The notes beneath the pieces are model-generated. The model searched no databases. It was not told where the DNA came from and was given only the letters and a program-made list of their open reading frames with translations. The position numbers and the translations under genes are program-made. A DNA stretch of 64,000 nt from the NCBI GenBank assembly GCA_027487685.1, contig JAIYDC010000091.1, positions 1 through 64,000 of the forward strand. The letters run 5' to 3'. The stretch comes from Pseudomonadota bacterium. Lineage in GTDB: Bacteria; Bdellovibrionota; Bacteriovoracia; Bacteriovoracales; Bacteriovoracaceae. Below, piece after piece: positions 28,277 through 31,895 of this stretch (the stretch's first letter is position 1; each line of letters starts with the position of its first letter).

Positions 28277-28756
28277 ATGAATGGAGATAAGTTTTTTATG
28301 AACATCCCTTTTTTATTCTCACTTTTATTCTTACTCATTGTCAGTGGCTGTACTCATGGCGTTCAGGTCGATGAACTCAGCGAAGAAATAAACAGACACG
28401 AGGCCAGGAGCCTTGCTGAAATTCGTGCCGAGTTGAAGATTATTCTTGAGGCCCACCCTGATCTTTCCAAAGAGGTACAAGATGGGATCACTCAAACGGT
28501 AGAAAAGGGGTTGGCGAAGCACCAAGTTCTTAGAGACCAGGAATCAAAAGTGATACATCATATTTTGTCTCAGGCCGTTTCACCAATCTCAGAAAAGGAA
28601 GGGACCATCGCTCAGAAGGATATTCTCAGAAAGATATATTTAGAGAAAAGTGACAACGTGTTCGAGCTTGTCATGGATGTTAAGAAACTCGTTGGTCCGT
28701 CACCCAAAGATGGCATTGATCAGGAGATGAAGTTGTTGATTCGCGAGATAAGATAG
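28277..28756 (+). CDS. Small lipoprotein
   Basis: NIPFLFSLLFLLIVSGCTHG lipobox. Confidence 0.65.
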   Translation: MNGDKFFMNIPFLFSLLFLLIVSGCTHGVQVDELSEEINRHEARSLAEIRAELKIILEAHPDLSKEVQDGITQTVEKGLAKHQVLRDQESKVIHHILSQAVSPISEKEGTIAQKDILRKIYLEKSDNVFELVMDVKKLVGPSPKDGIDQEMKLLIREIR

Positions 28757-28794
28757 TTTTTTTTCTAGGTGATATAACTCAACCAATTAGCTGC

Positions 28795-28834
28795 TTGCAT
28801 TGGAGGTGTTGCTTCGGCTACTCCTCCAATGCAA
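28795..28834. other. Strong intergenic hairpin with TTCG loop
   Basis: TTGCATTGGAGG / CCTCCAATGCAA 12-bp perfect stem, inner GTtGC-TTCG-GCtAC. Confidence 0.75.
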
Positions 28835-29044
28835 ACTGGTTAAGGCCTGGTGGCGAGGTTCACGTTTAATGCCCTTAGATCATAGGTTTAGATTGACTAG
28901 CATGACCTTGCTGATCAACTGGTTTTAACTTTTTCCTAATTCACATACAGGATGATTGCTCTGTTTAAGTGATGAGAACAGACCTTTTAATCGATTTAAT
29001 GAAATAGGCGTGTGCGTCGATAAAGCTCCTATCAAGGGAGCACC

Positions 29045-30058
29045 ATGAAGAATAGTATTCATAGAAACTTAGATCGACTCCTTCACGACCGAGTTCCAGG
29101 CACGAAGATATCAGTCTACATACCTATCCGTGGTGATCTGCCGGCCCATCTCCTCTTTACGAGCTTGAGGGAATCGGGAGTGAAGCTAATCCCGGAATTA
29201 TTGTTCGCCAAAAGTTTTCGAAAATGGCTCCAAGGAGTTTATGACACCCACCGGGGCGGTAAAAGTACTCGAACGTTAGCATGTTTTTATTCTGATGGTG
29301 TTAGAGAAGTCATCGCTCTTGACAAAGAAATCCCTCCCCGTGTGGTCGTTGCTCAGTCCTGGCACGTAAAGCCTCTCATGTACGTCGCAGACTTAAAGCC
29401 CTGGGGCCATATAATAGACTTCAACGAGAGTGGTGTTTCCATTTTACGTACCGATGGTGAATCAGTCGATGATCTGGGAACAATCGTTCCCATGGTTAAT
29501 TCCACACTCCCTTCCAAATTCTGGCACGATGAGCTTGATCGAGAGTCGTTGAGGAAACTCGCTTGCCTTGTTGCAAGCCGAGTTTCGGAAGGATCGGTGG
29601 TTCAGATTCTTGGTGCGCCGGATGGGTTTATGCAAAGTCCTAAGTTCTGGCAGGCCTACTGGACTAACGTCAGTGTTGATACTAAATCCACCGGGAGCAT
29701 AGACCGGCAGACATGCCTACGTAACTTCGGCCTCCTTCTCTCTAATCAGATGTTACTTGAGGAGCCTCTCGATATGCTTAAGATTTTTAAGGATTCTACG
29801 CCGATCTCAGACCCTGAGAAAATTACGAGACTTATTCTTGAGAGGAAGATATTCCGGATCTATATTTCTCTTGAGGCAATTCGATGGGGGGTTCTTAATG
29901 AGAACTCAGGAGATATTAGCATGAGTAAGTTTCAAAAAAATCACCACGACGAGGATATTCTCGACGACATAGCGGAACTCGCGTTACGGTACGGATTAGA
30001 AGTGAGGGTCTTACGTCAGAGCTCATTCCCCGAAAATTGCGAAATTCTCGCTCTCTGA
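29045..30058 (+). CDS. BaeRF-like (bacterial aeRF1-related) protein, copy A
   Basis: VIALDKEIPPRVVVAQSWHVKPLMYVADLKPWG; C-terminal DDIAELALRYGLEVRVLRQSSFP; paralogous to 30429-31448. Confidence 0.7.
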   Translation: MKNSIHRNLDRLLHDRVPGTKISVYIPIRGDLPAHLLFTSLRESGVKLIPELLFAKSFRKWLQGVYDTHRGGKSTRTLACFYSDGVREVIALDKEIPPRVVVAQSWHVKPLMYVADLKPWGHIIDFNESGVSILRTDGESVDDLGTIVPMVNSTLPSKFWHDELDRESLRKLACLVASRVSEGSVVQILGAPDGFMQSPKFWQAYWTNVSVDTKSTGSIDRQTCLRNFGLLLSNQMLLEEPLDMLKIFKDSTPISDPEKITRLILERKIFRIYISLEAIRWGVLNENSGDISMSKFQKNHHDEDILDDIAELALRYGLEVRVLRQSSFPENCEILAL

Positions 30059-30428: not shown

Positions 30429-31448
30429 TTAACAGGCCACAAACATTCGGCCGGGTGGTAAAAATGCCCGTGGAACAACACTCACTGGAATATCGTTTCG
30501 TAGTGCCAGCTCGATCAGATCGTCCAGGACATCATCGTCCTGGCAATCTCTCTGGGCCCTGCGCAACCCTACGGCCCCTGAACTAGAGTCGATTACGCCA
30601 AACTGCATGTCTTCCAGGGACACGCAGAGAGATCTGATCTCTCGATTTAAAATTCGAGGTCCCAGCTCTTCAACCTGGGCGATGCCATGATTTTCATCGT
30701 AGATGATCTCTTTTACCCTCCGGCGGTATCTCTCAGTAATTATCCGTCCGACACGCAGTCGAAGGATGGAAATCGCATTCTGGGGTAGCTGGCCACGGGT
30801 CTGTTCTTCCACTTCTATGACTTCGAGTCCAAGGCCCCGCCAAACCTCTGGCGACGAGAGAAGTGCATCTCCTTGGTTTGAGATCCCGATGAATGCGACT
30901 TCCGGTGTTCGTAGACCCCGGACCTCGTTAGAAAGGAATTTCAGAAAATCTTTCTTCTCGAGTCGTGAAAGTTTGTTCCAGTCCACAGGAATTTTTAATC
31001 GCGAAGGCAAGTAAGTCTCAAGGAGCACTTCATCTCCGGTGCTCACGTTATAAACAGTCGCTCCCAAATCTGAAAAATGCACCAGTAAGGCACCCACAGC
31101 GTACTCTCTTGCGGCCACCAATGGCTTTATATGGAATGAACTTGCGACGACGACCCTTGGGGCAAGCCTTATTGGTAACGGGATGACAGTTGTCACTCCC
31201 CCTCCGATGAAGAGGGCCAGGGTGGCCGATCCTTGTCGCTCCCATCTTCTCCAATCCACTGTACTGACGGTCACGGGCGGGTGTCCTTCATTGGCCAGGA
31301 GACCGTTGGCCACGCGCAGAAGCGCCGCCAGAATTTTCACTGATGGTACTTCGGCCGATATCAGGGGAACGAAGATGGAGACGACGGGGCCATGGCCGTT
31401 TGCTAGAGTGGTAAGATTCCTAATATGTGAGTCATATTGATTTAACAT
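30429..31448 (-). CDS. BaeRF-like (bacterial aeRF1-related) protein, copy B
   Basis: TTVIPLPIRLAPRVVVASSFHIKPLVAAREYAVGALLVHFSDLGATVY; DDVLDDLIELALRNDIPVSVVPRAFLPPG; start overlaps the HPF stop. Confidence 0.75.
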   Translation of the reverse strand: MLNQYDSHIRNLTTLANGHGPVVSIFVPLISAEVPSVKILAALLRVANGLLANEGHPPVTVSTVDWRRWERQGSATLALFIGGGVTTVIPLPIRLAPRVVVASSFHIKPLVAAREYAVGALLVHFSDLGATVYNVSTGDEVLLETYLPSRLKIPVDWNKLSRLEKKDFLKFLSNEVRGLRTPEVAFIGISNQGDALLSSPEVWRGLGLEVIEVEEQTRGQLPQNAISILRLRVGRIITERYRRRVKEIIYDENHGIAQVEELGPRILNREIRSLCVSLEDMQFGVIDSSSGAVGLRRAQRDCQDDDVLDDLIELALRNDIPVSVVPRAFLPPGRMFVAC

Positions 31449-31801
31449 GATTGATCCCTTTGGTTCATCCATTTACTCTGGGTCTTCCTGGGTTTGCGTT
31501 TCATTTTTTCCGTTGACCTCCTAAGAGCGAACTCCGAAGTGCCGGCCAGAAGGGCTATCGAGTGGTAAAGGTTTTCAGCAGCTTCCTTGAACCTAAGAGT
31601 GCCCCTGGCCCCAGTGCCAATCATGAGGGTTGTCGTGTAGTGATCTGGCCCGGCCTGGGTTGGAGAATTCTCTCTCTCGACTGTGACAGTCACTGGACCT
31701 TTCCGCCAGTAAGGAATTTTATCTAGAATGGGTGCGAGTCTTTCCTGGATAGCATTTCGAATAAGGGCAGACGAGGATAGATTCTTGAATACGATCTTCA
31801 T
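31442..31801 (-). CDS. Short HPF/RaiA (S30AE) ribosome hibernation factor
   Basis: GPVTVTVERENSPTQAGPDHYTTTLMI...LRFKEAAENLYHSIALLAGTSEFALRRSTEKMKRK; basic tail. Confidence 0.72.
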   Translation of the reverse strand: MKIVFKNLSSSALIRNAIQERLAPILDKIPYWRKGPVTVTVERENSPTQAGPDHYTTTLMIGTGARGTLRFKEAAENLYHSIALLAGTSEFALRRSTEKMKRKPRKTQSKWMNQRDQSC

Positions 31802-31895
31802 ACCGAACTCCTTGTTGGTTGAGTTTATGGTACGACATCTTTAGTAATCGATTAAATATATAAAAATTAGGTTTGAATTTGGATTAATCGATGGA

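Follow-up and report, generated by a model that had tools for sequence, protein, structure and literature searches.

The stretch of DNA analysed here (the window, 64,000 nucleotides) is part of a draft genome, and the relatives named below are mostly Bacteriovoracaceae MAGs. All the evidence is computational and comes largely from draft metagenome-assembled genomes, so that the absence of a gene may reflect the incompleteness of a genome. The locus consists of two overlapping genes on one strand and a third gene that converges on them:

31442..31801, minus strand: HPF/RaiA-like (S30AE) gene, a short form of 119 aa whose tail is basic
30429..31448, minus strand: BalA, a Balon/baeRF-1 homologue, 339 aa
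31442..31448, minus strand: 7-nt overlap in which HPF stops and BalA starts, based on the sequence and on the overlaps seen at orthologous loci
29045..30058, plus strand: BalB, a second Balon paralogue, convergent with BalA

Re-reading both minus-strand open reading frames from the sequence returned the coordinates given in the first-pass annotation, which had missed BalB, and an overlap of 7 nt. The longest reading frame of BalA is 31472..30429 (347 aa). The ATG at 31448 is the likely start (339 aa): a syntenic orthologue with 79% identity, in genome G006, begins at the equivalent position, and an AAGGGA stretch stands upstream. The overlap makes it likely that the translation of HPF and that of BalA are coupled. 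Both are genuine genes, since the genus retains the overlapping pair at nine loci, while protein identity at orthologous loci is about 38–45%, the closest relative excluded.

The HPF of the window, taken alone, matches PF02482 with E 1.5e-4 and 22.9 bits, narrowly below the Pfam cut-off of 23.7; the same model is matched by 12 of the 12 members of its family (E up to 1, best E 5.3e-7). When the family profile is compared to the PDB, the matches are RaiA, PSRP1 and HPF (PSRP1 E 1.3e-6, RaiA 8rd8_D E 3.5e-6). The structural model (pLDDT 82.8) has the S30AE fold: the matches ranked 1 to 36 in the PDB are all of the HPF/YfiA/PSRP1 type, including PSRP1 (E 5e-8) and RaiA 8rd8_D (E 1.2e-6). The S30AE identity proposed for this gene is therefore borne out by the family profile and the model. 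The C-terminal dimerisation domain of long-form HPF (100S) was sought in the 119-aa protein and is absent, so the protein is of the short form. It resembles RaiA, short HPF and chloroplast PSRP1 in its fold and in its top profile and model matches; it differs from RaiA and PSRP1 by an ENS...D motif that is invariant in its subfamily, and by a score that is, for the window copy, just under the Pfam cut-off.

The sole significant NCBIfam match of BalA is NF052287, the Balon family (E 5.1e-7), which is also matched by all 16 aligned members of the BalA family (best E 3.4e-28). The score of BalA against this model (29.5 bits) is far under the equivalog cut-off of 330, and BalA is therefore a very divergent Balon/baeRF-1 homologue rather than an equivalog of the tested Balon. 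Relatives in the BalA alignment match baeRF_family3 of Pfam (best E 1.2e-14), to which more distant loci link as well, but a Pfam search of BalA itself returned no family at E<=10, hence no baeRF model. Regarding the PDB, a profile of 11 BalA relatives gives a single match, Balon 8rd8_B (E 0.0022). Searches with one sequence were less informative: phmmer with BalA as the only query gave nothing but chance allantoinase matches in the PDB, a Bdellovibrio-type Balon, run in the same way so as to locate the HP motif, had no match there, and a first single-sequence scan of the genome contigs with BalA gave none either.

An AlphaFold model of BalA (16 family sequences as input, mean pLDDT of 86.9) has a three-domain aeRF1-like fold, nearest to Balon. 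In a fold search of the PDB, ranks 1 to 5 are all Balon chains (E 2.8e-14 to 1e-13, TM 0.61–0.62, identity 13–17%), followed by archaeal and eukaryotic RF1 (aRF1, eRF1) and Pelota. The comparison with Pelota and Balon suggested in the first-pass annotation thus places Balon ahead, and the position of 30429–31448 in the aeRF1 superfamily is confirmed by NF052287, the profile match to 8rd8_B and the fold ranking. BalA nevertheless remains remote from the tested Balons, since its identity to them does not exceed 17% in the fold search, so that the HP motif, bL27 trap and EF-Tu contact of Balon, like the lasso loop and the beta-hairpin of its C-terminal domain, can be no more than presumed for BalA. 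The two peptides quoted for it earlier, PLPIRLAPRVVVASSFHIKPL and DDVLDDLIELALRNDIPVSVVP, are found in the sequence; GGQ is absent, as had been noted, and so is NIKS. Where the glycine/glutamine loop would stand, before the long helix of the middle domain, BalA has instead a conserved Y-x-P...DW.

BalA and HPF thus lead, by profile, to chains B and D of a single structure, 8RD8, a ribosome that carries Balon and RaiA at the same time (PMC10901736). Balon binds the A site of ribosomes, with or without mRNA, along with RaiA and is devoid of GGQ and NIKS; its genes most often adjoin raiA, and several copies may occur per genome (PMC10901736). Before that, Burroughs and Aravind (2019) had described HPF neighbourhoods and operons of baeRF-1 families and proposed a joint translational shutdown (PMC6514570). 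The linkage between HPF and baeRF is thus known (it was published in 2019, and experiments gave it an anchor in 2024), and the idea that the two proteins of the window are partners, although correct, had already appeared in general form (PMC6514570, PMC10901736). New at this locus are a divergent member, two neighbouring Balon genes, the pairing with two lineages and the NhaR-like lead discussed below; we found no study of a Balon–HPF partnership in Bdellovibrionota in the literature searched. Like the Balon of Psychrobacter urativorans (AOC03_06830; PDB 8RD8, 8RDV, 8RDW) and Msmeg1130, BalA has a three-domain aeRF1-type fold without GGQ, belongs to the same length class and adjoins an HPF/RaiA gene. 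Unlike them, it forms a deep clade of its own (13–17% identity), found here only in Bacteriovoracaceae-type genomes, its gene overlaps that of HPF, and a second Balon with a shared candidate operator is adjacent. The baeRF-1 families of Burroughs and Aravind are, similarly, predicted inactive aeRF1-like proteins in HPF operons; BalA departs from them in that it matches no baeRF Pfam model, the link being through its aligned relatives that match baeRF_family3.

The adjacency recurs in related genomes, as the first-pass annotation had suggested should be surveyed. BalA and the window-type HPF are present in the same 7 of the 26 genomes of the genus, a co-occurrence that has a probability of 1.5e-6 under random placement, uncorrected for shared ancestry. 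All nine window-type HPF genes in the genus adjoin a BalA, and the overlap is 4–8 nt at the nine loci (with starts chosen by alignment). Outside the genus the linkage is looser: one genome (G029) has a BalA-type gene without HPF, and two (G045 and G028) have HPF without Balon. In a sample of the phylum, the HPF profile has matches in 57 of 291 genomes (E<=1e-6); among 30 HPF loci that were fetched, a Balon gene is present within about 1.5 kb at 18, an NhaR-like LysR gene within the same distance at 17, and only one locus has neither nearby (manual count). The Balon gene is downstream of HPF in the BalA clade and upstream in other lineages of the phylum. In a tree of 74 sequences, in which the tested Balon group was named after the tree was seen, a single clade of the HPF-linked Balons of the phylum is rejected (p-AU 1.4e-5); therefore, two Balon lineages adjoin the same HPF subfamily, in opposite gene orders. 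That one HPF subfamily is paired with two lineages of Balon is evolutionary support for the two proteins acting jointly, and the partnership now also covers a highly divergent lineage of Bdellovibrionota, the phylum to which some predatory bacteria belong. Collections of viral contigs and plasmids gave no matches, hence no sign there of a phage or plasmid carrier.

We consider it very probable that HPF and BalA form a ribosome-hibernation operon, whose products jointly inactivate and protect idle 70S ribosomes. HPF would occupy the mRNA/tRNA channel of the 30S subunit, as short HPF/RaiA proteins do, while BalA would enter the A site, reaching from the decoding to the peptidyl-transferase centre, and would release no peptide. 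Between them, they would shield idle 70S ribosomes and keep them inactive until growth returns, and the stop/start overlap would provide both from one mRNA at a fixed ratio. What the computations show is the family and fold of both proteins, the lack of GGQ in BalA, and an adjacency and overlap that are conserved; the binding sites, the joint occupancy, the induction under stress and the protection are those that we infer for HPF–BalA by analogy with Balon and HPF in other bacteria.

The first-pass annotation had left room for rescue next to hibernation, and one may ask whether BalA is a rescue or alternative release factor, acting by Pelota-like splitting or by release of the peptide, and assisted by HPF. 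BalA does belong to the superfamily of release factors, with aRF1, eRF1 and Pelota next after Balon in the fold search, and the 2019 review listed rescue among the options for baeRF-1 (PMC6514570). However, the lack of GGQ and NIKS and the Y-x-P...DW in place of the glycine/glutamine loop argue against this function, the fold scores prefer Balon (TM 0.62) to aRF1 (0.47) and Pelota (0.33–0.41), and the partner HPF is itself a hibernation factor. We therefore judge a role in rescue very improbable: it is unsupported, since GGQ is missing and the structures closest to BalA are those of hibernation complexes, whereas the hibernation part of the earlier proposal is well supported.

A refinement of the hibernation reading is that HPF–BalA is specialised to one condition, such as salt or pH stress or an arrest of the life cycle, everyday hibernation being ensured by other genes: the genome of the window has a second S30AE gene (on contig C39) and a third Balon gene, BalC (on contig C19), and BalC-type genes are matched in most genomes of the genus, compared to 7 of 26 for BalA–HPF. 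The linkage to an NhaR-like regulator goes in the same direction, as does the observation that in E. coli the deletion of nhaR leads to higher rmf expression and more 100S ribosomes (PMC10003395). On the other hand, the organism is known from a draft genome alone, and the NhaR-like name comes from a score under the cut-off (142 vs 219 bits), so that we regard such a specialisation as conceivable but would not favour it.

BalB lies about 400 bp from BalA, to which it is 26% identical (E 2e-27), and matches NF052287 with E 4.3e-4. Its orthologue in genome G014 (59% identity) is beside two BalA-type genes. As a matter of fact, three Balon genes stand within 7 kb there (L037:8426-15146), namely a BalA with HPF, a second BalA-type gene without adjacent HPF (L037:12934-13899) and the BalB orthologue; contig C118 of the same genome has a further HPF–BalA pair.

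The regulator of HPF–BalA would probably switch on this second Balon as well; the suggestion is a weak one, and the sites concerned are three:

31847..31855, minus strand: palindromic TTAATCGAT(TA) site, candidate operator, 46 nt ahead of the HPF start codon, conserved in G006
31884..31892, minus strand: another ATCGATTAA site upstream of HPF, inverted, not conserved in G006
28987..28996, plus strand: TTAATCGATT site, candidate operator common to BalB and HPF–BalA, some 50 nt ahead of the BalB start codon

The rare TTAATCGATT site is present 45–58 nt upstream of both the HPF–BalA operon and BalB, and TTTATCGATTTA is found at the same distance upstream of the BalB orthologue of L037. The window contains three copies of ATCGATTAA, two upstream of HPF and one upstream of BalB, for 0.55 expected, and 2 of 100 shuffles reach three. 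Genome-wide, TTWATCGATT occurs 18 times, vs 9 for the reversed control; four of the 18 sites are intergenic according to simple ORF calls, and two of these four precede HPF and BalB. The upstream region of the NhaR-like gene has two ATCGAT cores, one of which is retained in G006. The core is absent from the HPF upstream regions of the NhaR-linked loci in G017, G014 and G013, and a scan for consensus promoters and terminators gave nothing above chance. It is important to note that the site was spotted on inspection and that its statistics are post hoc; the ATCGAT operator is for this reason a lead, not a result.

Regarding the putative regulator, the top NCBIfam match of the linked LysR proteins is NhaR, with 142 and 137 bits, under the cut-off of 219. 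The NhaR-like gene is present in 8 of the 26 genomes of the genus, including six of the seven that have the HPF–BalA pair (hypergeometric p 7.8e-4); in the genome of the window, the closest copy (67%) is on contig C141, unlinked to HPF–BalA. The situation is reminiscent of NhaR and rmf in E. coli, where a regulator of this type is also tied to a ribosome-hibernation gene (PMC10003395). There, however, NhaR is one of several metal-responsive regulators and its target gene is distant, whereas here the NhaR-like gene neighbours HPF/Balon in many relatives. It may be that an NhaR-like LysR protein runs a hibernation regulon of Bdellovibrionota, made of a coupled HPF–Balon and a separately promoted second Balon behind an ATCGAT-centred operator, and that the HPF subfamily gained different Balons more than once; we put this forward tentatively and, as a whole, hold it to be rather doubtful. 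The NhaR-like link, if real, would give a concrete entry to how bacteria time ribosome dormancy. In G045 (L045:8662-11650), two genes stand after the NhaR-like gene and HPF that look, by eye, like those of a carbonic anhydrase and a bestrophin-like membrane protein, with no Balon nearby.

Last, a small gene upstream of BalB (28298-28756) is predicted to code for a lipoprotein (lipobox ...VSGC). Relatives of this gene stand behind BalA in two genomes (G014, G013) and behind an NhaR-like gene in G025. We considered it as a third hibernation partner and rejected this candidate, because four of its six other strong matches (in G005, G001, G017 and G021) precede an operon for export of the ABC-permease/HlyD type, and the stretch read there has no Balon; the gene is therefore treated as part of an export operon. 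A strong hairpin (28783-28845, z -3.8) stands directly after it, before BalB, and may separate the two transcription units.
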